Below, piece by piece: positions 3,956 to 58,080 of a stretch of 64,000 nucleotides of DNA. A model generated the notes under the pieces. It made no database searches, was not told the DNA's origin, and saw only the letters and a list, made by a program, of their open reading frames with translations. Source of the DNA: Hydractinia symbiolongicarpus (taxonomy: Eukaryota; Cnidaria; Hydrozoa; Anthoathecata; Hydractiniidae); assembly GCF_029227915.1 (NCBI RefSeq), contig NC_079878.1, forward strand, positions 27,243,501-27,307,500, written 5' to 3'. Position numbers and translations under genes: made by a program. Position 1 is the stretch's first letter. Every line of letters begins with the position of its first letter.

Positions 3956-4371
3956 ATGGATGCTTGCATGGAACAAGATATACACGACGATGTAAACACT
4001 GGAAAAGATCTTTCAAGGTAATGCTTATTTCTAATTGTGCTTAAAATTTCTAACCTAACATACAATTGCTTTCTAATCTAAGTTGTGGCTTTGTAAGAGA
4101 AATTGTATGCACAGCTAATTTTTACTTTTAAATAACTTCATTCATTGGGTGTGAAGCAGTTTTTTGCAAAATGTTCATTGTAATTTAAAAAAATTGCGTC
4201 AATGCTTCACTTTTTTTCAGAAGTACACGTAAGCGTTCATTGGAATAAAGAAAGGAGCGCAATAGAAAGAAAAAACTGATGCGTAGACAAAGAAAACAGG
4301 AAATTTTCTAAAGGCCCAAGAAAAGGAAATCGAAATGAAGGAACGATTTCAAGAACTAGAGCACCAGAATT
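3956..4371 (+). pseudogene. 5' exons of a basic/coiled-coil protein, with intron
   Basis: A first exon (3956-4017) encodes MDACMEQDIHDDVNTGKDLS and ends AAG|GTAATG. An intron of about 200 bases ends TTTTTTTCAG at 4220. The next exon continues in phase with RSTRKRSLE, meets a TAA, and stays in the same frame as RKERNRKKKLMRRQRKQ. After a one-base shift, KEIEMKERFQELEHQN follows: a basic stretch running into a coiled coil, reminiscent of a bZIP. Most of this (4001-4371) is duplicated at 11965-12328, including the TAA, so the stop predates the duplication. The product cannot be named. Both splice sites are intact in both copies. Confidence 0.4.
4001..4371 (+). repeat. Duplicated intron-containing segment, copy 1
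   Basis: Near-identical to 11965-12328, from GGAAAAGATCTTTCAAGG to CTAGAGCACCAGAATT. It includes the end of exon 1, the whole intron and the start of exon 2. Copy 2 lacks about 7 bases (within GAAATTTTC). Retention of the intron rules out retroposition of a spliced mRNA and favours DNA-level copying, such as Helitron capture. Confidence 0.85.
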
Positions 4372-4378
4372 ACAAATC

Positions 4379-4804
4379 ATGATATCGGTTCAAGCATATC
4401 GATCCACCATTGGTGCTTTTTATACCGCAGCTGCTAGTCACTGCGATAACAATACAGTAACAAATCATAATCACCACAAGTATTCAAATTATAAAATGGT
4501 TTTTGACACTACTGGCCAAGACTATTTTTGCTTTTTAAGAACTTTCATTTTAATGAGTTTTGTGTGCCTGCTAATCTGTAATATTAACCTTGCATCGATA
4601 AAATTACTGCTGTTGTTATCTGGTGACGTTGAAATTAATCCCGGGCCTGTTACCAATAATGATATTGACTTCCAGATTGCATGTCAGGAATCATATGCCA
4701 CGTATCTTTTCAACAACTCAAATTCTGCCAATCAAATAGTTGCACATGCTAGAAGTATTGGTCTGTCCAATGTCACAATGTGGTTTGTGATTTCGTTTTC
4801 CTGA
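4379..4804 (+). CDS. Small ORF with 2A ribosome-skipping peptide
   Basis: A 141-codon frame contains a hydrophobic segment (LILMSFVCLLICNI-like, about residues 57-72), then IKLLLLLSG and the motif D-V-E-I-N-P-G-P at 4625-4648. This matches the 2A consensus D(V/I)ExNPGP, at which ribosomes skip a peptide bond before the last proline. 2A-like peptides are known in several non-LTR retroelements and in some invertebrate genes. The stretch upstream could act as a signal peptide or membrane anchor. The frame is not that of the Helitron remains starting near 4780; the last 10-15 codons may already be Helitron DNA. Whether the ORF belongs to a retroelement or to the spliced segment upstream is not clear. 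Confidence 0.5.
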   Translation: MISVQAYRSTIGAFYTAAASHCDNNTVTNHNHHKYSNYKMVFDTTGQDYFCFLRTFILMSFVCLLICNINLASIKLLLLLSGDVEINPGPVTNNDIDFQIACQESYATYLFNNSNSANQIVAHARSIGLSNVTMWFVISFS

Positions 4805-7605: not shown

Positions 7606-10411
7606 GGTGGTAGGGCTATAAAAAATACCTTAAAACGCTAAAAATTACATTTTTTTTTCTTTTTTGGAATCTGACTATTTAATATATCTACTTTCCATTA
7701 CCAATCAATAATAATGATAAACTGATACATTTTGTGCTTTTTGAGGCTTTAGAAACTCGTTTATAGCAAGAAAGTTCCTTAGCAACGCCCATAGTTACCA
7801 CATCAAGAAGTTTTACCCAAATTTACCTCTCCCTTTATTGCCCCAAATTTAGAGACACTGATCTGGAAGAGATATTGACATATCTACTTTGCTTTCTGAT
7901 TATTTTGCCGGTCTAAAACCCACATTTTAAAATCACAAATCCCATTTAAAGTGAAGTTAGCTAGCTAGCTACTTTTTTTTGCCGAAGATTGTGTTGTGAA
8001 AAAACTATATAACGTTGTCAGTATGGATAAAAATAATGCAGATAATTAACAGGATACTAGCAAAATTACTAAAAGTAGCAATAAACAGAACTATAGTCGA
8101 AAAAGAAAAAGAAAATGGAACGGTTTTGTCCCAAAAACTTTATCTTCTGAAGTGTCAAATGTGATCGTTGCTGGTGTTGTTTATACACCTTCAAGCTCAA
8201 CTTCTAACTCCAGTTCCAGTGAAAGAAAGTTACCTTCAGCATCTAGACGTGATAATGGTAACAAAATAACTTTTTATATGTCTTTGGAAGATATTGATAA
8301 TGACTTATTTATTATCATTCATCTTAATGTGCTCAAAAATATATGTGGAGAACTTGCCTGTCCGAATTGTGCTGGTGAAGTGAGTATTTCTGATGACAAA
8401 TTAAAACGACGAGGTTTTGCTCATTCCTTAAATATCAGTTGCTTGCAGTGTGGCTGGATTAAGTCATTTTATACATCTCCTGAAACCACTACAAACAAAA
8501 ACACTCAAGGTCGTAGAGCATTTGATGTGAACACTAGAGCGGTTATTGCATTTCGGGAAATAGGATGTGGATTTTCAGCCATGGAGACATTTTCATCAGT
8601 CATGAATGTCAAATGCTTGTCATCATTTCCGTTTAAACAGCTGAATAAAAAAGCAATGATTGCATATAAAAGTGCAGCAGAAAGCAGTATGGAAGCTGCA
8701 GCAAAAGAAGTTCCAAAAATTGATTTTGTCAATGACATATCTTGTACGCGCGTTTCAATAGATGGCTCATGGCAAAAAAGAGGACATTCCTCATTACATG
8801 GGGTTGTAACATCTATCTCTGGAGACAAATGTATAGACATTGAAGTGAAATCAAGACATTGCTTTGGATGTAAAATGTGGGAGAATAAAAAAGACACCCC
8901 TGAGTATGAAATTTGGAAGCTTGAACATAATTGTCAGATAAACCATGATAAATCATCAGGCGCAATGGAGTCTGCGGGTGCTATTGACATATTTAATCGT
9001 TCGATTGCCACACGTAATCTAATTTACAAGGAATATTTAGGGGATGGAGATACTTCATCATTTAATGATGTGGTTAAGTCAAATCCCTATGAGAATCATG
9101 GCATTACACCAATTAAACTGGAATGTGTTGGACATGTTCAGAAACGCCTTGGAACACGTTTACGTAACCTTGTGAAATCTTACAAGGGTACCAAAACTCC
9201 TTTATCTGGTAAAGGAAAGTTAACAAATAAATGCATTGATTCAATGCAGAATTATTATGGCATGGCCATAAGAAATAACATTGGAAACTTGTATGCAATG
9301 AAAAAAGCAGTTTATGCCATACTTTTTCATTTTACAGATTTTGATGATTTTGCGACATGTCACCAGTTCTGTCCCCGTGATAATAGCAGCTGGTGTAAGT
9401 ACTGGTCAAAAGGTGATAGAAGGTACAAACCTTCCAACACTATACCTGTATTTATTAAAAACTTGCTCCAACCAATATTCAAAGCCCTTATGTCCGAAGA
9501 ATTATTAGAGAAATGCATGCATGGAAAAACGCAAAATGCTAATGAGGCGTTGAACAGTATTATATGGTCTCGTGTACCAAAAGCCACTTTCGTTGGCAGG
9601 GAAACCATTGAAATGGGTGTTCACTCTGCTGTCATTCATTACAATGATGGTAAAAAAGGATTGCTGAACGTTTTGAGTCATTTTGGTTTAAAAGGCGCAA
9701 TTTCCCAAATTATGGCAGAAAAGTTAGATGATTCACGCATAGCTCGTATGAATAGGAGATCAACCGACCAAGATAAAAAGCAAAGAAAGAGGTTAAGAGC
9801 CAGGAAGAAAGGTTACACAGATGATATGAAAGAAAAAGAGCCTATAGATTCTTATCAAGCTGGTGCATATTAACATAATATATACTTTTCATGTAATATT
9901 TATAAAACTTATTTTTGTTTTGTGATATTCTAACAATTGCGTTTTTCAACTAAATTCAAATTTTCAGGGTGTGTCTGCAATGCTTATGTACTTCATTTGA
10001 CAGATAGATCTTTTGTACAACTTTTTTTAACTGAAATTAATATTGTAGGAGTGAAGTTGTTTAGTGCTTGAAAGTTGGTAATTTGACTTAATCAGGACAA
10101 ATCACAATATTTTTTTAAATATTTGAATATATAAAAATTCCATCTGTTAAATGAAGTATAATATAATGTTTTGTAAGACTGCCAAAGGTTTTTTATTAAT
10201 ATTGTTGGTAACTTTAGTTATGTTGTCACAAACATTTCATTTATTTTGTCATATTTAGGTCATTTTTTCCGCCATTATGGAATACCTTTAAAATAATAAA
10301 AAAAAATTTTCCTGAAAATTTGTCTGCATTATTTACCCCACCATTTCGAAACACCAAAATGATGTTTTTATAGGTCTTTCCAAAAAAAGTGCTTTTTATA
10401 GCCCTACCACC
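7606..10411 (+). mobile_element. Complete Kolobok-type DNA transposon
   Basis: The element has 19-bp perfect terminal inverted repeats, GGTGGTAGGGCTATAAAAA at the left end and its reverse complement at the right end. TTAA flanks both sides (7602-7605 and 10412-10415). A TTAA target duplication together with the encoded transposase type points to the Kolobok superfamily. It is inserted in an intron between two coil mini-exons. The ends look intact, so it may be recent or mobilisable in trans. Confidence 0.85.
8023..9873 (+). CDS. Kolobok / Mutator-like DDE transposase, one early stop codon
   Basis: The enzyme would cut and paste the surrounding element at TTAA. The likely original start is ATG 8023; an in-frame TAA at 8047 interrupts after MDKNNADN. 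The frame is then open to 9873 with no internal break. The next upstream-most usable ATG is well inside the protein, so the annotated frame from 8152 begins without an ATG. The N-terminus has RKRKRK, a possible nuclear signal. A CPNC...CLQCGW zinc-binding pair precedes the catalytic core. Candidate acidic residues are D in IDGSWQKRGHSS (8761), D in LGDGDTSSF (9043 or 9049) and E in NEALNSIIW (9544). The D-D-E spacing and the DGSW...HSS pattern fit transposases described as Mutator-like/Kolobok. Confidence 0.8.
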
Positions 10412-11964: not shown

Positions 11965-12328
11965 GGAAAAGATCTTTCAAGGTAATGCTTATTTCTAATT
12001 GTGCTTAAAATTTCTAACCTAACATACAATTGCTTTCTAATCTAAGTTGTGGCTTTGTAAGAGAAATTGTATGCACAGCTAAATTTTACTTTTAAATAAC
12101 TTCATTCATTGGGCGTAAAGCAGTTTTTTGCAAAATGTTCATTGTAATTTAAAAAAATTGCGTCAATGCTTTACTTTTTTCAGAAGTACACGTAAGCGTT
12201 CATTGGAATAAAGAAAGGAGCGCAATAGAAAGAAAAAACTGATGCGTAGACAAAGAAAACAGGTCTAAAGGCCCGAGAAAAGGAAATCGAAATGAAGGAA
12301 CGATTTCAAGAACTAGAGCACCAGAATT
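11965..12328 (+). repeat. Duplicated intron-containing segment, copy 2
   Basis: Matches 4001-4371 with few differences, including donor CAAG|GTAATG and acceptor TTTTTTCAG|AAG. Copy 1 is followed by the 2A-peptide ORF, whereas this copy is followed by a kinase-like frame. It begins directly after the minisatellite. The same 5' exons are thus joined to two different downstream sequences. Confidence 0.85.
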
Positions 12329-12334
12329 CGAGCT

Positions 12335-12937
12335 TGTAATGTAAAAACTACTGTCAAAGGAACCGGTAGAGATGCCAATTCATTTCCGGCATCAAGGCAA
12401 TTAATGAGCATGTGTCAAGATAAGAGTCAAACATTATCCCGTTCTCTTAACTTTCAAGTGAATTATTTCGCCTCCTCTGATGTACAAAAGTTTAGTTTGC
12501 TTGGTGATGGTGTTTTTGGTAAAGTTTACAAGGGTTGTATTACGAGCATGAATCAAGTTGTGGTTGCAAAAACTGTCCCTTCAAGTCGTTTTTTGGATAT
12601 TTTAGCTGAATGCAAAATAGGAATGTTGATGGCTGGCCACATCAATTTCCCATTTATGTATGGAGTAGTAAAACTAGACACATTACTTATTGAATTTGTA
12701 CGTGATGAGTGTGGAGCACAGTCACCAACTTTAAACGACTTTTTTGAAAGATCACTTGACAGTGCTAATATGAAAAATACATTAAATATTTGCATTGATT
12801 TGTGTAAGGCTATCCATGACCTTTATGTAAATGGTATTCTACATAATGATTTACACCCTCAAAATGTCCTAATCAAAAATAACCAGTGTGCGAAAATAAT
12901 AGACTTTAGTAAAGCGACACTAGTGACTTTGTTTTAA
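12335..12937 (+). pseudogene. Truncated protein kinase domain
   Basis: An open frame ending at 12937 (first ATGs at 12404 and 12410) contains the N-lobe glycine loop LGDGVFGKVYKG, the VAIK-like VVVAKTV, an alpha-C region, and the catalytic-loop motif ILHNDLHPQNVLI (HND in place of HRD, with Asp and Asn kept). The DFG position reads IDFS. The protein ends just after this, so the activation segment and the rest of the C-lobe are missing; a complete kinase domain is about 260 residues and here roughly 150 are present. The frame upstream of the ATGs is open (RACNVKTTVKGTG...) back to the duplicated coiled-coil segment. Probably a captured or decayed fragment. It is unlikely to be an active kinase. 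Confidence 0.65.
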
Positions 12938-24335: not shown

Positions 24336-24980
24336 TTTAAGTCTGTGGATACATTGCAACGATAGAGCAGTAATTTTCTGTGATGACCGCATTATTAACA
24401 GTCACGAGTCATATGTTTTCTTTTTAGAAGAGCTGAGATAAGAATATTTTAAGCAGAATGAGTCAGCAGGGGGGCTTGACTACACTCAGTCTTGTCTTTG
24501 GAGAGTGACGACTCCACTTATTATCCCAGTCAAAAAACAAAATCAAATAAAATTAAGTTAGCAAGGGGGTTTGATCACACATGATCTTGTCTTTGAAGAG
24601 TAACCACTCGACTTATTACCCCAGTTAAAAAAAAAAAAATAGCAGGGGGGTTTGATCACACATGATCTTGTCTTTGGAGAGTAACGACTCCACTTATTAC
24701 CTGAGTTAAAAACAAAGAATAGCACAGTTGAACAGAAAGTGGTCAAAGTTTACTTTAGGAAGATAGGGATGTCTAGTTTCTGCTTATGACCGTCGGCGGA
24801 CCTCTTCGAGGTGACCCAGCTAGACATCCAGGGTACTTAGGTTCAGAAACCTACCTGCCCTTGGTTAAAGTTCTGTTCATCTTTTCAAATGTGTTGTGTC
24901 CTTTTTATTTTTTTAAATATTTTTTTAAATAATTCCTTTTAAAAAGGGAGATATGTGTATTTAGGGGCATTTTCTCTAGA
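24336..24980 (+). mobile_element. USP retroelement-like copy B, left part
   Basis: Starts inside the last USP codons (WIHCNDRAVIFCDD..., from about 24338). The family tail follows: three hairpin modules (24470-24530, 24562-24630, 24645-24710), then the inverted pair GGATGTCTAG (24767-24776) / CTAGACATCC (24820-24829). Twelve bases present in copy E (TATGGGTCGAAA) are missing here. The tail is interrupted at 24980 by a LINE and resumes at about 31754. Heavily 5'-truncated. Confidence 0.75.
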
Positions 24981-31601: not shown

Positions 31602-31753
31602 TTCAATGTAAGTTAAAGAAATAAAAAATGATACTTCCGTTATATTAGCAAAGGCTGTCTTCGAGCTTTCTAGTGCATGAGTACACTTGGATAAACACGG
31701 ATGAAAACACGTCCGATCAATTCGGAGGTGAGTAAGTGAATGAACACATCGTT

Positions 31754-31847
31754 GAGAGAAGTACAACCTCTAGTTTATTTCCAAAGACCTAACAGGTTGA
31801 GTTCATCATTGCGGTGCCTAGCAACCTCTCTGTATTTTTTTTTCATA
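31754..31847 (+). mobile_element. USP retroelement-like copy B, right part (tail end)
   Basis: Continues the tail broken at 24980: AGTACAACCTCTAG..., TTTCCAAAGACCTAACAGG, TTGAGTTCATCATTGCGGTG. It matches the end of copy E (51350-51425) and the short tail insert inside copy D. It abuts the 3' tandem repeat of Helitron copy 4. Confidence 0.8.
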
Positions 31848-33628
31848 ATTACGAATTCATGGGCAGACCGTCGCTTTGAGAAACAACTATTCTGTCTGTT
31901 GAACTTAAAATATGTAACATGATTCTTGGATACAGCTTACTACGCATTGATATTAAATCAAGTGTTTTACTTCGGCTTATTACATCTAATAATTACGAAT
32001 TCCTGGGCAGACAATTGTTTATTTTGTCTATTTTCTAAATCAAAATTTTACTTCACTATGCAGTGTTTTTCAATGTATAACATCTGCAAAATAGGTGAAT
32101 TTAGGTTGTAATTATCATTATGAATTACATAGGCATATTATCTACAGATGGTGAAGAACAAACTGCATCTTCAATACCATCATCACAATACTCGTCAAGT
32201 TCTTTTAACAAGTTGATATATTTTTCTATAGTAATATTGAATTTTTTGACAGTTTCATTAGATAATGCTTTTAGTCGTTTCTCTTCCTCTTGTCTAGCTT
32301 TCATACGGGGATGTGTATTAATATACAACAGTCGTTCTTGTGTAATTGGTTCGACAAGTGCCAATTTCTTTCTTTTTCGCATCTTGAGAATGCAGTGTAA
32401 GCTGCACCAAGGTCTTCATTTCCATCTGAATGGATTGTTGTAACTTGATACGCATATGGGTGGCAGTTTTACCATCTCCAATTGACATATCCTGACTTTT
32501 GGCAATAGTTATTGCATATCCTGGCATTAACGCAGGCCATTTCTACTGCAACAATCAGACTCACATCGACCTTCAACAGCAGTAATTGGTATCCATTTCG
32601 GATGTTCTTTAATCCATGACGGACCTTTATAATTAGGAAAATCGACTACAACAGCTATTGGAAATTCAGGTGGTGACATATTTGGTGAATAAAGGATTAC
32701 TTTTCTTATGGCACCATTATTTAGGCCAAGGCCTGTAAGACCCTTTTGGTTCTTGGTAAGGATTACAGTTGCACAAACTGCCATTAGAGATCTTAGTGGT
32801 ATTTGACCCAGTTGCTTATCAGTGAAAGCGTGATGTTTTACGTCCTGATGGAATAACAGCAACTGGCACACCAAGGTTAGCTAATTTATTATGGTTTTTT
32901 TCATTAACTTCATTCCATGTTTCCATTATTGTAAGGACGCGACCATGATAAAAGTTACATTTTTCGGTTTGGGGCAAAGCATTTTCATAACGACTATTTA
33001 TATCTTGCCAGTCTTGTTGAGTAATCGATCCATTGCGTATTGTAAGTAGCCGCTGTAAAGGGCTAACTGATCTGAACCTTGGCGCATTGTTTCTGTAAGA
33101 ACAATAATATCGTGAAATGAGCGATAGATTGCATAATCAGCAAAGTTGAATTTGAAATCCAAATCCAAAGCACGAATTGGTCCAAGTTGACCAAGGTCCC
33201 CAAAGAAATGACAGTTGGTACACCTCTATAATAATTATCAAAGTCTCCTGTTGCCTTACATAATCTTTGGCTGCATCAAGCCACTAGAAGCTTCGAGTGC
33301 ATGCTACGATCATCGATATTAAGTTGAATTAATTTCAGTTCATTGTTTTCATGCATGCCTGTATGTTTTCTTAGCTTTCTTAGAAGTACATCACCCAACG
33401 GATAGTCGAAAGCTGGACAGAATTTAAATTCTTATCTTTTTTAAGGTTGTGTTGTGGTGGAGTCATTGAGTGTATAGTGCAACCATTAGGTATGAGGACT
33501 GATGCTGCACCAATTGGGGCCAAGTTCATAACAGCAGAATTTCGCTTAAAAATACGACGAACGATTCTAGTAAGCCCGGTAATGATGAATGTTTTCCCGC
33601 CACCGGCTGTTTCTTGTATTAATAAGAA
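31848..33628 (-). mobile_element. Helitron copy 4, helicase-end fragment
   Basis: The minus strand holds the 3' part of a Helitron: tandem-repeat tail (31848-32040, same unit as 57.5-58.1 kb) and the helicase C-terminus to motif Ia. Recognisable pieces are ITIAKSQDMSIG, LTKNQKGLTGLGLNNGA, the GDLGQL region and the Walker A neighbourhood ending near 33600. Frameshifts and small deletions are common. It is cut at about 33628 by USP element C and resumes at about 34770. Confidence 0.85.
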
Positions 33629-34033
33629 TTGTCAGGTGGCAACTCGTACTTCTGTCACTACTGCAATAGTTACCAAACTGCAACAGTTGAAAAAGAGGTC
33701 GCAGAGTGCAGTTCAATTTTAGTTCTGCAATTAAAGCGCTTTGCCTATAACAAAGGTCTTGTGTCTAAGGTTTGTTCTCCTGTCACATCTTACCCGGGCA
33801 CCGTTTCTATACCTATCACTGTAGACAGTGAAGTCTCTTGTCGCAAGCACTACAACTTAAGGGCTGTAATTAACCACTCCGGAAATTTGAACAATGGCCA
33901 TTACACTACTGTTGCTTATAACCAAGTGCATGGTAAGTGGTTTCATTGCAACGACAGAGCAGTGGTCCCTTGTAAACAAAGCTTGCTTAATGGTGTGCAA
34001 CCTTACATCCTTTTTCTTGAAGAGGTTAGGTAA
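33629..34033 (+). pseudogene. USP domain C-terminal fragment, element C
   Basis: An uninterrupted frame begins in the zinc ribbon (FCHYCNSYQTATVEKEV), then ILVLQLKRFAYNK, the His box INHSGNLNNGHYTTVAY, WFHCNDRAV and a C-terminal YILFLEEVR. The catalytic Cys half is missing because the copy is 5'-truncated, so it cannot act alone. It shares more with elements B and E (NNGHYTT..., CNDRAV) than with A and D, defining a second subfamily. Confidence 0.8.
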
Positions 34034-34769
34034 ATTGCAGTCAGCACCACAACTTCCGGCTTATGTCAGCAGGGGGTTTGACTATTCTTATATCTTTTTA
34101 TTTATTTTTATTTTTTTATTATTATTATTATTATTAATATTTTTTTGTTTGTTTGTAGTCTTGTCTTTGGAGAGTGACGACTCCACTTATTACCCCAGTC
34201 AAAATAAAAGCAAAAAACAAAAAAAAAATTACGCCAGCAAGGGGGTTTGACTGTACCAGGTTCTATCTTTGGAGAGTGACGACTCCACTTATTACCACAG
34301 TCAAAAAGAAAAAAACAAAAAAAACAAAAAACAAAATAAAAATTATGTCAGCAAGGGGGTTTGACTGCACTGGTCTTATCTTTGGAGAGTGACGACTCCA
34401 CTTCCTACCCCAGTTACACAAGATTGTACAGAGTAGGACAGATAAAAAGTTATGGATGAAAAAAATGTCTAGTTCCTGCTGAAGACTGTTCGAAGACCTC
34501 TTTTGAGGTGACTCAGCTAGACATTTTGGGTACCTTGGTTCAGGAATATGAGTCGAAACCCTTGTACCCTTTACAGAAGTCCTGTCCTACTCTCTATGTC
34601 TGTTTCTTTGTTTAATTTTTGTGCCAATTTCCTCCTTGGGAAAAGGAAGAATTGTGTTCCTTTATATGAGCATGTTCTTTAGAGGAGCAAAACCTCTGGA
34701 ATTTAAATTTTAAGACTTAACTGGTCGAGTTTATCATTGTGCGTGCCTTTTGTAATTTTTATTCTTTCT
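33629..34769 (+). mobile_element. USP retroelement-like copy C, inserted in Helitron copy 4
   Basis: Helitron sequence stops at ATTAATAA (33628) and resumes at TGGCTGGGTACC (about 34770). In the intact copy (59745-59770) these are nearly adjacent, so this is a clean 1.14-kb insertion in the opposite orientation. It contains the C-terminal third of the USP, three hairpin modules (about 34065-34205, 34237-34306, 34354-34425), the inverted pair ATGTCTAG (34465-34472) / CTAGACAT (34517-34524), and the family 3' end. Strongly 5'-truncated, as expected for target-primed reverse transcription. Confidence 0.85.
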
Positions 34770-35092
34770 CTATTGGCTGGGTACCTTTTGGCAAAGTTTC
34801 TTTTGCGACTTGTAATAAATGCTGAGGATTTATACCAATGACTGTTCTCTGTAATTCATTAGCATTTAAGATGTTTGTTTGGGCTAAAGTACAATCTTCA
34901 GCATGCTGCAGTTCATTTTTTTCTGCTTCTTCAGATACAGATTGTATCCATATGTCAGCATTAATTGGCCATTGACTACCAAAACTTTGAATTGCATAAT
35001 TATTCCAATCAAATGTAGGCCCGCCATCATGAAGAACCTGTTGTACATGGTGCCTACCAATATCTCTCATTATTGCTCTACCTATGTTAATC
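34770..35092 (-). mobile_element. Helitron copy 4, middle fragment
   Basis: Minus-strand frame with ...PTFDWNNYAIQSFGSQWPINADIW..., ...ILNANELQRTVIGINPQHLLQ, collinear with 59761-60100 of Helitron copy 3. It is bounded by USP element C on the left and USP element D on the right. A short internal deletion removes the ADINEPD stretch. Confidence 0.85.
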
Positions 35093-35099
35093 TCCTGGT

Positions 35100-35495
35100 A
35101 AAAAGTCTAAACTTAAAGGTCTTTTACATCTCGCCTGCGATTGGATAATTTTGTCTGACTTAAAGGACGGATTTGTTTTCCCTGGGCATATTGCTTTAAC
35201 ATCACTCAGGCCAGATCTCGTTATCTATTCCAACAACAGGAAGCATGCGATTGTGATAGAGCTTACCTGTCCCTGCGAGAAAAATATGGAAAATTGGCAT
35301 TCAACTGAGATGTCCAAATACAATCCTCTGGTGAACATCATCAAACAAAACGGTTGGCATATAGATCTTTTTGCCATCGAAGTAGGTGCCAGAGGCTACT
35401 GCTCTCGATCTGTTTCTTCGTGTTTGAAAAGACTGGGATTGGATCGCAGAAAAACTTTTGTGCATGAAAGCTTCTTTCTGTATTTGGGTCGCTAG
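35100..35495 (+). CDS. Endonuclease-like domain of USP element D
   Basis: The frame is open from the 5' border and gives LLHLACDWIILSDLKDGF, then VFPGHIALTSLRPDLVIYSNN, HAIVIELTCPCEKN, NWHSTEMSKYNPLVNIIKQN, and HIDLFAIEVGARGYCSRSV...CLKRLGLD. The RPDL strand, the IELT strand and the ExxxxY helix have the order of a PD-(D/E)XK restriction-like endonuclease, as at the C-terminus of R2/NeSL-type and related LINE proteins. Such enzymes nick the target DNA. It ends at a TAG (35493-35495) followed by stops before the USP frame; in element A the two domains are separated only by a one-base shift. The nuclease assignment is from motif pattern, not a search. Confidence 0.55.
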   Translation, partial: KKSKLKGLLHLACDWIILSDLKDGFVFPGHIALTSLRPDLVIYSNNRKHAIVIELTCPCEKNMENWHSTEMSKYNPLVNIIKQNGWHIDLFAIEVGARGYCSRSVSSCLKRLGLDRRKTFVHESFFLYLGR

Positions 35496-35558
35496 AAATA
35501 CAAAGGTATGAAATGACACATCCCTATTTCAACCAACTATTCCATACCCACTCCTCTA

Positions 35559-36602
35559 ATGCCAAAGTCCAAACAACCCACAGTCAACAAGCCCAATACA
35601 CCTGTTAAAGTAGGCCCAGACCCACCTACCCACAGCAAAGTAGATCACGCAGGATTAATAAATAAAGGAAACACCTGTTACGCTAATTCCATCCTGAAAG
35701 CATTAACTGCAATCCCATCATTTTGGTTACATTGTGCTTCGGAATCTTCTCTTGTTAATCCTCTATTGAAGTCTGTTATGCTGAGTATGTCCATGCTGTC
35801 CCAGTCTTCCACAGCTGTTGACCATTCCGCCTTCTTAAGAGCCTTGCAGCGTGAGATGTCCAGCATTAGAAAGACTCCATTCGATATTATTACCCATCAG
35901 GACGTGCCAGAATTACTGCTTCATGTCTTGGGTGAATTAACAGGCCCTTCGGTTATCGCAAATAATATTATCACCAACATTATAAGCACTACGATGTAGC
36001 TTATTTCCAAAGACCTGACAGGTTGAGTTCATCATTGCGGTGGCTTGCCACCTCTTTGTAAATTATTTTCTCATGTAATGCATTCTTCTTACCAACAAGC
36101 AGGAAGAGGAAAGTATGCCTATTTTGCCACTCCCTCAGAAATCTCAGAATGCGTTACAGGTTCAATTAGTTGTTTTTTGCAGCCCGAAAATTTGTCTGGA
36201 AATGACAGGTGGCTTTTCCCGCAGTGCTCTTCTTATCAAGACAGTACAAGCGAAACGGTTTTCACCCAGTGTGGAGACATTCTAATTATCCAACTGAAGA
36301 GATTTACGTTTCTTGATGGAAGAACCCTAGAAAATAACAAATTTGTTACCTGGCTTTCTTCAAATGACGACATTTTTAGAGTTCGCTCTCAGCCAACGGA
36401 TGACATATCATTTAACAACAAATATTCGTTAGCTGCCACTATTAATCATTCGGGCACCCTAGGAGCAGGTCACTATTGGGCATTCATTAAAGATCGCAGC
36501 TGTGGCTCATGGTTAAGATGTGACGATAAATCATTTGTTAGAGTTGCACCATCCGATTTAAATAACTCTTCTGTGTATGTGTTGTTTTTTGTGAAAATGT
36601 AA
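35559..36602 (+). pseudogene. USP domain, element D, split by a short tail insert
   Basis: The N-terminal part (35559-35998) has a basic leader (MPKSKQ), Cys box GLINKGNTCYANSILKAL and THQDVPELLLHVL. Then 35997-36070 is an insertion of the family tail end. The second part (to 36602) has zinc-ribbon remnant FPQC (first Cys replaced by Phe), IIQLKRF, His box INHSGTLGAGHYWAFIKD, WLRCDD and VYVLFFVKM. The catalytic Cys, His and Asp are present, but the insertion and the loss of the first zinc cysteines would inactivate it. Intact USP domains hydrolyse ubiquitin linkages. Confidence 0.8.
35997..36070 (+). mobile_element. Tail-only insertion inside the USP frame of element D
   Basis: 74 bases match the extreme 3' end of the B/E subfamily (TTTCCAAAGACCT(A/G)ACAGG, CATTGCGGTGGCTTGCCACC, TTTGTAAATTATTTTCT). 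The matching sequence is at 51365-51435. This looks like an extremely 5'-truncated insertion or a template-switch product. GGTGGCTTGCCACC is a perfect small hairpin. Confidence 0.75.
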
Positions 36603-37331
36603 AAATTGTCTGATTAACATTCACATAAAAGGGGGAGGGTTATCTTTCCCTAGCGGTTTTGTATTACCCCAGATGTTTCTGTCACAAACAGTCTACCGTG
36701 AACCTAGAGTTTGCTCACTCTTCACTCTCTTATACAGTAATCATAAAAAGCATAGCAAGGGGGTTCGACTATGTCCTGTCTTTGGGTGCGACAACCCCAC
36801 TTTTTACCCCAGTCCAGTTGGAAGGCCAAAATTTGCTCACTTGGTCTACAGTGTTAACGATCCTGCTGTACCCATAGTTATTCTTGTAAGAAGCTCTGCA
36901 AGGGGGTGTGAAATTTCTCTTTCATGTCTTCGTGGTTTTACGCCCACGCATATCCCCCCAGTAACTTCAGGCTGGTCCTAAGCATCAATCACCTGTGTAA
37001 GGCTGAGTGTTGGGATCCCGTAACACGTGTAAAGCTACAGCCAGGTTCACAAGTTCTGGCACATAGGTAGTTGTTTGACCCCCTTTTTATAGTTTTTATT
37101 TATTTGTATATATATACGTTTTATGTCAATATATGTTTTTGTTTTGTTGTTGCAATATTTGTATTGTCCAGAGGGTTGCTTTTTCAACTAACTTGGTTGT
37201 ACAGAACATCCTTGTAAAAGGGAGATCTTGCTTTGCATAGAGATCTTTAGAGGGTTTAACCTCTACCACTTAAAATAAGAGTCATTAGACTAGTCGAATC
37301 ACTTCGGCTTGCTGTTTTGTTATCTCATAAT

Positions 37332-37616
37332 CATTGTGCAATGCCAGAATTTTCGGAACATTGCGTCTGTATATTGTGATGATTGATCGAAGACTGAGTA
37401 TTGGTTTCAATAATCATTGCACGGGTGTGACTTTGTGTTCTCTGGGGTTTTTTTTATCGAATGATTGTTTAGCCTCTTTCAATGAATCAATGAATTATTA
37501 CTGATGGGCATTCTTCGGTTTAACAAGGGAACCAAAGCAGCAAATGAGTCATGTTGTCCCTTCAAATCTTCGGTATTGTGCCACGTTCGAATAGAAAATA
37601 TTATGACCATAGCTTA
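37332..37616 (-). mobile_element. Helitron copy 4, third fragment
   Basis: Collinear with 60105-60390 of copy 3 (serine/glutamine-rich linker, then the ESFAAAL region), with many substitutions. It ends at GACCATAGCTT, after which sequence is unrelated. Together the three fragments are one Helitron copy split twice by USP elements. Confidence 0.8.
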
Positions 37617-37989
37617 AACTAAACTGTACCACATGTTCAGGCAGAGCACTTTAGTACAGGTATGCAGTATATCAAGTGCAACACACACACACAGCCATTA
37701 AGGTGTAATATATATTTTAGAAAATATATTTTCTTCAACTTTAGCTGAAATAAAAACACAATTTTTATATTTTACCATGTCATAGCGAAAACAGTCAGCA
37801 AACTTTTTTTAATTTTCACAAAATGTTCCTGGTATTTAAAATATATGTGTACTTTAGTGAACCATTAGTATAGGTAAACGAACCTTTCCAAAAAAAAATT
37901 TAGCCCAACTTTTGTTAAATAGAAACACAGCTTGTCCAGGTTGCGTGATTAGTACAAGTATACTGTGTCACCTCACACATACGTTTTGG
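37617..37989. other. Non-coding stretch
   Basis: No gene is recognised; a short (CA)n run lies near 37680. Confidence 0.5.
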
Positions 37990-38440
37990 CATAATACCCT
38001 TTTCAAAAACAAATAAAAATTATGTCAGCAAGGGGTTTGACTGCATTGGTATTATCTTTGGAGAGTGACGACTCCACTTCCTACCCCAGTTACACAAGAT
38101 TGTACAGAGTAGGACAGATAAAAAGTTATAAAGTTGAAAAAAATGTCTAGTTCCTGCTGAAGACTGTTCGCAGTTCGTTTTGAGGTGACTCAGCTAGAGA
38201 TTTTGGGTACCTTGGTTCAGGAATATGAGTCGAAACCCTTGTAACCTTCACAGAAGTCCTGTCGTACTCTCTCTGTCTCTTTGTTTGTTCAATTTTTGTG
38301 CCTATTATCTCCTTGGAAAAAGAAAGAATTGTGTTCCTTTATATGAGCATATTCTTTAGAGGAGCAAAACCTCTAGAATTTAAATTTGAAGACTTAACTG
38401 GTCAAGTTTATCATTGTGCGTGCACTTTGTAATTTTTTCA
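37990..38440 (+). mobile_element. Solo tail of a USP element (subfamily B/C/E)
   Basis: Matches 34320-34740 of copy C almost throughout: one hairpin module (38027-38094), TGTCTAG...CTAGAGA (one arm mutated), TGAGTCGAAACC, and the end ...AACTGGTCAAGTTTATCATTGTGCGTGC. No USP codons are left. It is the product of a strongly truncated insertion. Confidence 0.8.
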
Positions 38441-39000
38441 TTTTTCTTTGTTTAAGTGAGTGAAGCTATTCGCGCTCAAAACAAAGGATATCCGTACATT
38501 GACGAAGTGAGAAGTAAGCAATATGGTAGCCAATCAAAAAGAGCGGTCAGTATTCTGAAAAAATATCCTGCAACATTTTATGGGAAAAGTTCCTGTGCAA
38601 GATCAAAAATTAATCGTGAAATCTGATATGTACATTTTCAAAAAAAAGTTTATTCCACCTTCGGTTTAAATAAAAACTGCGGAAACAGCTCATTGTTACT
38701 CTGTCCAGCTAATCACAACAGTTTTTTTGGAGAACAAGTTCATGACAATAGGATAAAAAAAATTTATTCCCAACTGAAGAGACACTTCAAAACAGTAGCA
38801 ATTAATTGGGCTAGCTTGGTACATAATATTTTTTACACTCATGATAAAATATGCTGTTAATTTTTTTTGATTTGCTATGTCATCAAAGCACTTGACCCCT
38901 CCCCCATTCCCCATCCCCATAATCAAGCGTAAGTAATTTCGATGAAAATTTGGCTCTCCACTCCCCCTGAATGTTAGAAACACATGCCCTTTGTGGCTAA
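38441..39000. other. Non-coding stretch
   Basis: No gene is recognised on either strand; the minus-strand frame at 38.7-39.0 kb has no recognisable content. Confidence 0.45.
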
Positions 39001-48159: not shown

Positions 48160-48835
48160 ATTAACCCGGCTGTTTCTGTCACAAGCATCTACCGTGAACT
48201 TTGCTTACTCTTCACTCTCTTATACAGTAATCATAAGAAGCATAGCAAGGGGGTTCGACTATGTCTTGTCTTTGGGTGCGACGACCCCACTTTTAACCCA
48301 GTCCAGTAGGGGAGGCCAAGTTTGCTCACTTGGTGTACAGGGTTAACGATCCTCCTGTACCCATAATTATTCTTGTAAGAAGCTCTGCAAGGGGTGTGAA
48401 ATTTCTCTTTCATGTCTTCGTGGTTTAACGCCCACGCATATCACCTCAGTAACCTCATGCTGGTCCTGACCAAGGCTGGTCCTAAGCATCAATCACCTGT
48501 GTAAGGCTGAGTGTTGGGATCCCGTGATACGTGTAAAGCTACAGCCAGGTTCACAAGTCCTGGCGCATAGGTAGTTGTTTGCCCCCTTTTATAATTTTTA
48601 TATATTTGTGTATATATACGTTTTATGTCAATATATGTTGTTGTTGTTTTTTTTGATTTGTTGTTGCAATATTTTTATTGTCCAGAGGGTTGCTTTTCCA
48701 ATTAACTTGGTTGTACGGACCATCCTTGTTAAAGGGAGATCTTGCTTTGCATAGAGATCTTTAAGGGTTTAAAATAAGAGTTATTAGACTAGTCGAATCA
48801 CTATAGCTTGCTGTTCTGTTATCTCATAATCTTAT
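48160..48835 (+). mobile_element. Solo tail of a USP element (subfamily A/D)
   Basis: Nearly identical to 36660-37320: GTTTCTGTCACAA..., hairpin modules at 48244-48302 and 48387-48453, CTGTGTAAGGCTGAGTGTTG, and the 3' end ATTAGACTAGTCGAATCACT...TTATCTCATAATC. CTTATCGTAAGATCGTAAGAT-type repeats follow. USP codons are absent. A 14-base direct duplication (GCTGGTCCTGACCAAG) distinguishes it from copy D. Confidence 0.85.
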
Positions 48836-50039: not shown

Positions 50040-50675
50040 ACATAATTCTTATCAAAGAAATTCATAGAAATGTACCTCCTTGGAGTTGTTAGGGTTTACT
50101 TTTGTTGACCGTTCTCATTCTGAAACAGTAATCTAAATAAAGAATACTTTTTATTATCGAAGATAATATATAAAACCCTGAAGTTTCTTAACTATTTGCC
50201 TGACTTTGCGACTTAACCCAACAGCAAAACTATTGCGCAGTGCAACATTGCGCTCTGGACTTAAAATATTCAAAAGTTATTTACAATGCTTTGCGACACA
50301 GTGGCAAAACTATCGCGCAACGTTGTGCTAAAGACTAAATTGTTTGTTAACTATTGATCGAGGGTTTTAAAATATGTTTCACCTATATGGACTAAATAAG
50401 AAAGCTGTACTTGTGAAAATCCTCAAATGCATTTTTCGCTTCTTTAACAGTCAAAAGTTGGCATCTGCTCACCCATGGGTTTAATTCCTTTTCGCAAGGT
50501 TATGACAGGGTAATAATTGAAGATATAGAACGTACTCAATTATTCAATGAACATAAAAAACAATTTTAATCTCAATGTCATTGTATAATATATTGTTTAT
50601 TTCAAGAATGCACAACTACTACTACCAATCTTTTATCACTATTTTTCTGCTCGATAAAACGGCAACTTAAATAAT
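50040..50675. other. No recognised genes
   Basis: Two related stretches (CAAAACTATTGCGCAGTGCAACATTG near 50225 and CAAAACTATCGCGCAACGTTG near 50300) form a short degenerate direct repeat; otherwise nothing recognised. Confidence 0.45.
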
Positions 50676-51435
50676 GGTCACTACACAACCATAGCCTTCG
50701 ACCAAATGGTACACAGGTGGATACATTGCAACGATAGAGCAGTAATTTTCTGTGATGACCGCCTTGTTAACAGTCACGAGTAATATGTTTTCTTTCAGCA
50801 AGGGGGCTGGACTACACCAGTCTTGGTCTTTGGAGAGTGACGACTCCACTTATTACCCCAGTCAAAAATAAAACAAAATCAAATAAAAATTAAGTTAGCA
50901 AGGGGGTTTGATCATACTAGGTCTTGTCTTTGGAGAGTGACGACTCCACTTATTACCCAATTAAAAAAAATAAAAAAAATAAAAAAAAAATATTAGCAGG
51001 GGGGTTTAATCACACATGATCTTGTCTTTGGAGAGTACCGACTCCATTTATTACCTGAGTTAAAAACAAAGAATAGCACAGTTGAACAGAAAGTGGTCAA
51101 AGTTAATTTTAGGAAGATAGGGATGTCTAGTTTCTGCTGATGACCGTCCGCGGACCTCTTCGAGGTGACCCAGCTAGACATCCAGTGTACTTAGGTTCAG
51201 AAATATGGGTCGAAACCTACCTGCCCTTGGTTAAAGTTCTGTTCATCTTTTCAAATGTGTTGTATCCTTTTATTATTTTTTTTTATATATTTTTTTTAAT
51301 TCCTTGTAAAAAGGGAGAATTGTGCTTTTAGAGGCATATTCTCTAGAGGAGTACAACTTCTAGCTTGTTTCCAAAGACCTAACAGGTTGAGTTCATCATT
51401 GCGGTGGCTTGCCACCTCTTTGTAAATTATTTTCT
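50676..51435 (+). mobile_element. USP retroelement-like copy E
   Basis: Begins in the USP His box (NNGHYTTIAFDQ..., WIHCNDRAVIFCDDRLVNSHE), then three hairpin modules (50799-50867, 50899-50970, 50998-51064). The paired arms GGATGTCTAG (51121-51130) and CTAGACATCC (51174-51183) follow, with inner hairpin ACCTC-TTC-GAGGT (51154-51166). GGTCGAAACC comes next, and the copy ends GCGGTGGCTTGCCACCTCTTTG. It is the most complete tail of subfamily B/E and the reference for the interrupted copy B. Confidence 0.8.
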
Positions 51436-51545
51436 TTCTTTTAAAAAATTTAATCACCTTAACATCTTTATAATTTTGCTTATTTACATCATGTTTTTTC
51501 CTATCAGTAACTGCAGGCATTTGATTATCAGCCTTTGCCAAGGTT

Positions 51546-55276: not shown

Positions 55277-57533
55277 TATTGAAATTCGTTTTTCAAAAAG
55301 AAGTATTCTACAAGAATGAATTTTTGCAAAATCGACAAAAACGTGCTAAATTAATTCCCTTATGGTAGCTAAATTTTTACTGACTAAACTCAAAAATAAT
55401 CTATGTAGCAACTTATCTAGCCTACTTTATACGGCCATCTCGATTTGAATTCTAGGTGACGTTAATGCTGCCGTAAAAGTAGACCTAAGACACAAGTTTA
55501 AACTGTCTATTAACTGCAATACTCGCAAGGTTCTAACAATTTTTCTCACTTTGAAACTTCGTTGTGACTAACAACCATGAAGGATCCTATAACGGTTAAA
55601 TACTATACTAATAACTGATATAAGGGATTATTTGAGGATTATGATGATTGAAAAATTGTGTAAATGCTGAAAAATAAAGTTAAGACAATTACATTTCCTA
55701 ACACAGGCTAGAACTAAGCATCTATCACTTCCCACCCTCATTGCTATGATTTTAGAAAAAAGCTTGTAGAGTATATGCTTACCAAATAAATCCTTCATGT
55801 ATGTTTCATTGATACCATTGCCAGGGTGCGTCATGGATACCATTGTTAGTGTAGAGAATTTTCCTAAATGATTTACAAATTTACATTATGAATTGCGCAG
55901 TCCAAAAATTAAATGACATGACAAGTATCATTTGGCCGTCCTAACTCACTGTGAAAGAGTAGTTATGAAAAATAATGATATGAAAAATTAAAAAAAAATT
56001 CACTGGCGGTACAATCTCTTAATAATGTCACATTTTATACAGAAGTGAAATTGAAACGAGTGTGGTTCCAAAATTGTTAAATTAACTTAAAAATTACATT
56101 ACATAATGAAAATGGCAGTCCCACCTATGAAATATAAAATTAATTAATAAGAGCTACTTATCTGGTTGTTTTTCATTTAAAATAACTGCCACGTTATATC
56201 TTCCATTAGAATTTGAAAAAACTTGCTAACGTCTTCTACAAATTCCTTGGATTTTTTTTTATAGTACCTGAAAACAGGAAAAAGACAAAAGCGAGCAACA
56301 AAGGAACAGGAAGTGTACAGTATCAGTGAAATTACAAAATACATTAATTTTCAAATATTTGGTGCTAATTTGATTCCTTTTTAACTGATTGTACCTTATG
56401 CGTATAACTTATTTTTGTGGATTTGGCTGAAAACCGCAAAACTAAGATCTGTGAAAAATTTAAAATCTCTTATCCGTAAAAATGTTCTATTTGTTCGTAC
56501 TTCAAACCTAAACCTCAGACATTGAGTTCTTTGTTTCACATTTGAAAATACTTTTTTCTGAAGACCTTTACTAATCTTTTGGCATGTGCAAAAATTTATT
56601 TCTCATATTTCTGGAAAACGAAGTCATCTAAAAATATAGCATTTTGGGCCAGCACCACAAAAATTTTGTATGCATAAGGTATTAATTGCCGTTCTCCTCC
56701 ATCCCCTTACAACCGGACCTATCCTTACCAATATATCTCCTTAATGTCCTCACATAATTTTTAGGTTTTTTCCTTCATGGTTTGAAATCAAGACTGTGTG
56801 ATATCTTAGGGGATCATAGTATCATTATGGTCAGTTAAAAATTATTTTCATTGTTATATAGTGAAAGTCTTTCCATTGTACTGATTTTGAGGAATATTAA
56901 AGTGTCAAATTTGACATTTCAGGATTTACTGACATTGGTTACAAAAGTCAATGATGATGATACTTAATTTGTAAAATAAAAATAAAAACACAAAAATTGT
57001 TTTAGTGAACTTAGTAAAACTTGAAACTTAGTAATCCCCCTGGGATAATTGTAAGTATACATACTAGACACGGAACTAAATGTTTAGAATGTCATACACA
57101 TTAACACATAAAATTTAGTACAAAAAAAGGGGAGGAAACCAAGAAGTGACCCACTTTTAAATTGACTTAGCTTAATGTTAAAAACCTTTTGTTTTACATT
57201 CTTAGAAGGAAAAAAGACAAGAAGGTAAATCAACTCAAAAGTCAGGTTACAAACTTGATTATATTAGGGCCTTCAGTAACTTAAGACTTGGTATGTGTTA
57301 ATGAGCATGTATTTTAGACAAAAAGCCTTGTAAATAAAAGATTTTTCAGTGTTAAATAAGGACAATTTAAATTTGATGCACAAATTATCAAAATTTTAAG
57401 AAACTCTGAGTGCACACAAATGCTTAGGCTTCTTACAAAAAACGAGGATTAATTTGCCTTTAAATTGAGTTTGTTGATAATAATCACACATCTTGATGCC
57501 TGATTTTAGGCAGAGTATTTTTAGTTTATTTTA
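55277..57533. other. No recognised genes
   Basis: AT-rich sequence without a convincing frame, splice pattern or repeat, up to the tail of Helitron copy 3. A small hairpin (TGCCT-GATTTT-AGGCA) near 57499-57514 might belong to the Helitron 3' terminus. Confidence 0.4.
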
Positions 57534-58080
57534 ACCATGATTCTTGGATACAGCTTACTATACATTGATATTAAATCGAGTATCTGACTTCGGCTTATTA
57601 CATCCAATAATTACGAATTCATGGGCAGACGGTTGTTTTGAGAAACAACTATTCTGTCTGTTGAACTAAAAACTTGTACCATGATTCTTGGATACAGCTT
57701 ACTACACATTGATATTAGATCAAGTGTTTGACTTCGGCTTATTACATCCAATAATTACGAATTCATGGGCAGACGGTTGTTTTGAGAAACAACTATTCTG
57801 TCTGTCGAACTAAAAATGTTTACCATGATTCTTGGATACAGCTTACTACACATTGATATTAGATCAAGTGTTTGACTTCGGCTTATTACATCCAATAATT
57901 ACGAATTCATGGGCAGACGGTTGTTTTGAGAAACAACTATTCTGTCTGTTGAATTAAAAATGTTTACCATGATTCTTGGATACAGCTTACTATACATTGA
58001 TATTATAATCAAGTATTTGACTTCGGCTTATTACATCCAATAATTACGAATTCATGGGCAGACGGTTTTTATTTTGTTTA
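57534..58080 (-). repeat. Tandem repeat of about 145 bp in the Helitron 3' region
   Basis: Nearly four units, each with CATGATTCTTGGATACAGC, GACTTCGGCTTATTACATCC and AATTACGAATTCATGGGCAG. The same unit, once and partly twice, forms the tail of Helitron copy 4 (31848-32040). Copy 2 has an unrelated array here. Confidence 0.85.

Follow-up and report, generated by a model that had tools for sequence, protein, structure and literature searches.

What raises a question at this locus is a ubiquitin-specific protease (USP) domain standing closely behind an endonuclease-like domain in repeat DNA of the hydrozoan Hydractinia symbiolongicarpus: does it belong to a host gene, or to a mobile element, and if so to which kind? 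The stretch analyzed, called the window below, comprises 64,000 nucleotides of contig NC_079878.1 (assembly GCF_029227915.1, positions 27,243,501 to 27,307,500), and an earlier note on it had proposed a mobile family coupling the two domains. Our analysis indicated that the family is very likely a long interspersed nuclear element (LINE) with a restriction-like endonuclease (RLE), the intact form of which encodes one protein composed of reverse transcriptase (RT), CCHC zinc knuckle, R2-type RLE, linker and complete USP. The copies in the window are, in this same explanation, dead and 5'-truncated insertions.

Domains of copies A and D

Two copies retain both domains, A (438 to about 2700, minus strand) and D (35093-37332, plus strand). 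In D, the end of the RLE (35094-35492) is followed on the plus strand by a junction (35493-35558) with two stop codons that are lacking in the relatives P0016 and P0065, by the linker and N-terminal half of the USP with the Cys box GNTCYANS (35559-35996), by the C-terminal half with the His box GHYW and CDD (36081-36599), and by a 3' tail of type 1, common to A and F (36603-37332). In A, the RLE occupies 2703-2569 and 2576-2316, the USP 2148-1864 and 1861-1283, and the tail runs to about 438. The order of an endonuclease-like stretch and then a USP, as described in the earlier note, was the same in both copies and was supported by Pfam UCH matches and by tblastn between A and D (RLE, E 6e-25; USP, E 3e-35), the amino-acid identity being 42-53% across both domains. 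Besides the two junction stops, the frame of D is broken by one stop at the edge of a nested piece and by one inside it; frame changes are present in A, and neither copy reads through as a whole.

The Pfam UCH model matched both halves of the USP of D (E 2.5e-9 and 3.6e-19), A (2.8e-19) and C (1.1e-19). When D was read through, positions 1-254 of 254 of the model were covered (E 4.4e-30), and the long relative P0157 gave E 1.7e-31. Among the 18 USP-bearing long proteins described below, the catalytic Cys was present in all and the His box in 17, as P0160 stops short of it. Judged by these matches, the USP (peptidase C19) is complete with its catalytic residues (Cys, His and Asp/Asn) conserved, and it is most likely an active deubiquitinase.

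Assignment of the endonuclease

The hallmarks of RLE LINEs given in two papers are a CCHC knuckle, an RH motif, a PD..(D/E) core and a shifted catalytic Lys (PMC5678591, PMC10499050). In this class the knuckle, which is IAP/gag-like, precedes the RLE, RH belongs to the first helix, and the Lys has its place in a helix (KX2KY). The RLE of D displayed RPD, X14 and E, then EX2KY and EVGARGYC, and A displayed KX2KY in place of EX2KY. The GXW position after the fourth strand reads GARGYC in both copies, where R2Tg aligns as GARG; the RH motif is absent from A and D through truncation, and no window copy contains the knuckle. A profile from the knuckle to the RLE (A5) ranked three R2 proteins on top (E 9e-5 to 4e-4), and the next row was at E 0.25. 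The AlphaFold models were poor, with a mean pLDDT of 43.9 for the RLE and 38.5 for D read through. With the poor RLE model, R2Tg was the top match in Foldseek (E 3.3e-3), and R2 was not among the 50 entries shown by VIA-align.

Other searches with the RLE were negative. No Pfam model reached the cut-off (one chance row for D, E 0.23; none for A), and NCBIfam gave no match. D RLE alone found no match in the PDB up to E 10, and A2 (D plus the two A pieces) produced a single PDB row, which at E 1.3 is attributed to chance. No relative was found by RLE queries in viral contigs or prokaryote genome contigs. On its motifs, its relatives and the profile match, the domain is identified as an RLE, specifically one of the R2 type, which agrees with the restriction-endonuclease-like domain suggested before.

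Long relatives with RT and USP

The RLE residues of D alone were used as query with long proteins admitted, and 19 of 104 candidates were taken; this query reaches only fairly close relatives. Because it contained RLE only, USP was not selected for in this set. By precomputed Pfam, UCH was found in 18 of the 19 and RVT_1 in 17: 16 proteins carried both, P0169 and P0171 UCH only, and P0175 RVT_1 only. Since P0175, an RT-RLE protein without USP, passes the length gate, length does not account for the preponderance of USP carriers. The prediction of a single long open reading frame (ORF) with RT, endonuclease and USP thus held in 16 of 19 predicted proteins. Six of the 16 were examined by hmmscan, and RT was followed by UCH in 6/6, with zf-RVT in between below the cut-off in three; in P0157, RVT_1 lies at 352-621 and UCH at 1165-1451.

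The domain order of the long relatives was RT, zinc knuckle, RH motif, RLE, linker and USP. The motif scan found an RPD..E-like core in 19/19 (CPD in P0164), the RH motif in 19/19, the RT box in 18/19 (P0169 starts within it), K..[K/R]Y after the E in 17/19, and, by a loose pattern, a CCHC-like knuckle in 19/19, that of P0168 having a long insertion. When the RT of P0157 was compared with solved proteins, R2 was closest (E 3.9e-28), against 2.3e-14 for R2Bm and 1.7e-11 for LINE-1. The intact protein has about 1,400 residues and is longer in some relatives. A second group (P0168, P0170, P0172, P0173 and P0174) displayed long N-terminal extensions and longer linkers, the USP Cys lying 166-333 residues behind the RLE end motif. 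D read through shared 45% identity with P0159 over 525 columns.

Two further sets were examined. With D RLE as query and only short proteins admitted by length, 43 of 47 candidates were taken, and the precomputed Pfam column listed UCH in five of these. The query P0030 returned 166 proteins, 120 of them listed, and among 19 of these examined for motifs the RH motif was found in all and a knuckle upstream of the RLE in 17. Six matches were labelled Hydractinia symbiolongicarpus (P0001, P0016, P0065, P0100, P0136 and P0151), with 90% identity between P0001 and the RLE of D, and 94% over 141 residues between P0151 and A. One RT-RLE-USP protein, P0167, is assigned to a Pseudomonadales metagenome-assembled genome; a search of prokaryote genome contigs did not recover it, and it is probably animal DNA binned with a bacterium.

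Copies in the window and their insertion

Self-comparison of the window revealed nine copies with common 3' ends. USP sequence is kept in A, B, C, D and G, while E, F, H and a 74-nt piece contain the tail alone. On the plus strand, copy B (24346 to about 24900, 3' end approximate) and copy G (50658-51439) consist of the USP end with a tail of type 2, and copy C (33626-34769) is truncated within the USP with its tail present. Copy E (38005-38440) is a tail with 93% identity to that of C, copy F (48160-48831) a tail with 86% identity to that of D, and copy H (31752-31835) a very short 3' end with 90% identity to the end of G, all three likewise on the plus strand. The USP end described earlier for B, C and E was therefore found in B and C, E being tail only, and G keeps it as well. 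No RT was present in any copy, as had been noted before; it is missing because all copies are 5'-truncated.

A single Helitron fragment contains both C and D, and the corresponding empty sites are seen in two further Helitron copies of the window. At the target of C about 3 nt were lost without duplication. TAATC stands at both junctions of D; since D and F have identical final letters, it may be part of the element end. The 74-nt piece (35999-36072, plus strand), nested in the USP of D, is the 3' end of a G-type copy (97% identity to G over 75 nt) with ATGTA on both sides. Shared 3' ends together with differing 5' ends fit target-primed reverse transcription (TPRT).

The tails of A to G share a conserved motif of about 60 nt (AGCAAGGGGGTTTGACT...TCTTTGGAGAGTGACGACTCCACTT; 11 strict matches), located at 999-1107, 24452-24736, 34158-34444, 36736-36844, 38012-38120, 48226-48334 and 50784-51090; in B, C and G it stands in tandem. 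The earlier note had spoken of repeated structured tails. Repetition was confirmed by the common 3' ends and the recurring motif, and structure gained no support from covariation: a pseudoknot-like pairing of the motif gave 87.9% paired cells with no covariation beyond shuffles (301 of 500 reached the score), and RNAalifold on the motif found double changes in none of nine pairs. The whole tail of D had a folding z of -2.86 (20 shuffles). For the tails, sequence conservation alone is claimed.

Constraint and inheritance

Both domains have been under constraint. The proportion of nonsynonymous differences (pN) was below that of synonymous differences (pS) in all six stretches compared among A, C and D (pN 0.30-0.50, pS 0.68-0.85), and in all four USP stretches compared among them; the ratios are rough, as saturation is almost reached at synonymous sites.

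Joint inheritance of RT and USP was evaluated in 11 of the 18 USP proteins, those with complete RT and USP. Pairwise distances of the two domains were correlated (r 0.95, permutation 1 in 5001), and the RT and USP trees showed the same two-group split with full support in both. Within the larger group the trees were mostly unresolved and discordant, the outermost protein being P0164, with a long branch, in the RT tree and P0162 in the USP tree. The concordant split and the distance correlation suggest that the USP was probably gained once and has not been swapped between the two groups. In terms of its predicted proteins, the element belongs to the RLE LINEs, and its USP, placed at the C-terminus, has been inherited jointly with the RT.

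Neighbouring repeats

The window consists of animal-like repeat DNA. A Helitron copy at 13.8-19.0 kb resembles, in self-comparison, a second one at 58.1-63.4 kb, which carries a PIF1 helicase. A Mutator-like transposase of 607 aa in an open frame is located at 8050-9873 (Pfam Mutator, E 1.1e-66), and a LINE with RVT_1, unrelated to the USP family, at 27.7-28.2 kb. A Pkinase fragment was observed at 12317-12937 (E 2.4e-16), and the ORF at 4280-4804 holds DVEINPGP, which we take to be a 2A-like ribosome-skipping motif. A 144-bp minisatellite array is present at 57528-58070 and 31766-32099, close to the ends of Helitrons and to the short copy H. The Rfam scan of the window found no family at gathering score, and that of 33000-39000 gave a single sub-threshold row (E 0.67).

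Discussion

Some of the observations weigh against a fused RT-RLE-USP protein with a working protease, and they are considered here with the explanations they would favor. Both junction stops of D fall within 22 codons, whereas the remaining 452 coding codons, counted with the nested piece and its edges excluded, have none; an ATG stands at a matching place in A and D, and P0001 ends exactly there. All of this would suit a USP translated from its own ATG, as a second ORF further downstream on the element RNA. Such a two-ORF reading was first favored from the stops of D, and was mostly contradicted by relatives that read across the junction. The H. symbiolongicarpus gene models P0016 and P0065 run stop-free from RLE into USP, and the same continuation to the USP Cys box occurs in six more, making 8 of the 68 short proteins that contain the end motif of the RLE; the others may end by a stop or by lack of sequence, which are indistinguishable. 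The stops of D thus look like damage. Copy A is open through the linker, where D stops, and breaks just before the Cys box; as P0151 ends at the same spot, this break may be common to copies. The earlier note had considered that the two domains might never share a transcript; P0016 and P0065, which are predicted proteins and not transcripts, argue otherwise, as does the passage from RT to USP within single long relatives, and a separately translated USP is considered improbable. A second difficulty is that A and D begin (2700 and 35093) within about 20 nt of the same element position, an exception to the variable 5' truncation among copies, at a protein identity of only about 50%. No explanation beyond chance was found, and two independent truncations so close together are unlikely (1-2% by a rough hand estimate). 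A non-autonomous RLE plus USP family mobilised by the RT of another element would account for it, and yet neither copy has a start codon ahead of the RPD motif, and upstream of the RLE the Hydractinia proteins P0065 and P0151 both reach the RH motif, and P0065 the knuckle as well, so that the chance of this explanation is very small.

The location of C and D inside a Helitron might point to a host USP gene or a Helitron-borne USP that merely adjoins retroelement pieces, and the references of PMC7599744 include a title on a Helitron that carries deubiquitinase-like domains. This is practically negligible in view of the empty sites in the two other Helitron copies, the recurrence of the RLE-USP order in A at another place, and the union of RT and USP in single proteins of relatives. 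Common 3' ends, 5' truncation and the Helitron insertion with empty sites mark a mobile family, as first proposed, and the five USP-bearing copies in the window alone are at odds with a single-copy host gene. The USP might also be without catalytic activity and serve to bind ubiquitin, or be a passenger undergoing decay. Its faster divergence speaks for this, the mean identity in the 11 proteins being 0.34 for USP, against 0.57 for RT and 0.52 for RLE; the conserved Cys and His box and the excess of pS over pN in every USP stretch compared speak against it, and an idle USP is rated as unlikely. An RLE LINE with a fused, catalytically conserved USP is the reading adopted below.

R2 elements (R2Bm and R2Tg) resemble this LINE in RT, CCHC knuckle, RH motif, PD..(D/E) core and shifted Lys. 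They differ in that a linker and a full USP are added here behind the RLE, and in that R2 resides in 28S rDNA, whereas C and D lie in a Helitron. P0175, with 44% identity to D over 90% of the RLE and no UCH in the precomputed Pfam column, has the same order of RT, knuckle and RLE and ends behind the RLE. Among LINEs with other proteases of this kind, Dualen carries an OTU protease. As described in PMC4640811, NeSL and Utopia-1_TSP are RLE LINEs bearing a cysteine protease of the ubiquitin/SUMO-peptidase kind, theirs being Ulp1-like and N-terminal, whereas here it is a USP at the C-terminus; they insert in spliced-leader or U2 genes, in contrast to the Helitron site of C and D. The window copies have no N-terminus, and hmmscan of the six relatives found no Ulp1 model, UCH being C-terminal in 6/6. 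Mobile elements with deubiquitinase-type proteases also include Ginger1, Mutator and Helitron elements with OTU or Ulp1 domains and a Trichomonas transposase with peptidase C19, the same family as here, all of which are DNA transposons; PMC2836005, which reports them, suggests a general link between the ubiquitin pathway and transposition. The protease family itself is thus not new to mobile elements. No description of a USP in a LINE was found in a literature search that left most subscription journals outside its reach, in line with the earlier suggestion that a USP C-terminal to the RLE may be a new arrangement. What is novel is a variant of RLE LINE with a C-terminal USP, not a new kind of element.

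By analogy with R2, the RLE would nick DNA, the RT would start there on the 3' tail of the element RNA and copy it by TPRT, and early stops of reverse transcription would yield the 5' truncations. The USP, as an active deubiquitinase, would travel with the integration complex and would remove ubiquitin. Its substrate may be the element's own protein, which would thereby escape proteasomal degradation, or may be chromatin or repair proteins present where the DNA is nicked. For such active deubiquitination during retrotransposition, suggested by the conserved residues, the odds appear about even. Slightly more tentative is a history in which a host USP was captured a single time by an ancient lineage of RLE LINEs and became fused C-terminal to the endonuclease, its deubiquitinase activity having been needed for retrotransposition ever since, at the nick or on the integration complex of the element.

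R2-type elements are under study as gene-insertion tools, and an add-on domain adjoining the endonuclease may for this reason be of practical interest. If the single capture and lasting need are true, the family would add one more way, independent of the others, in which the ubiquitin system was enlisted by LINE-type elements. With a C-terminal, co-inherited USP of conserved residues, the role of ubiquitin during TPRT becomes testable.
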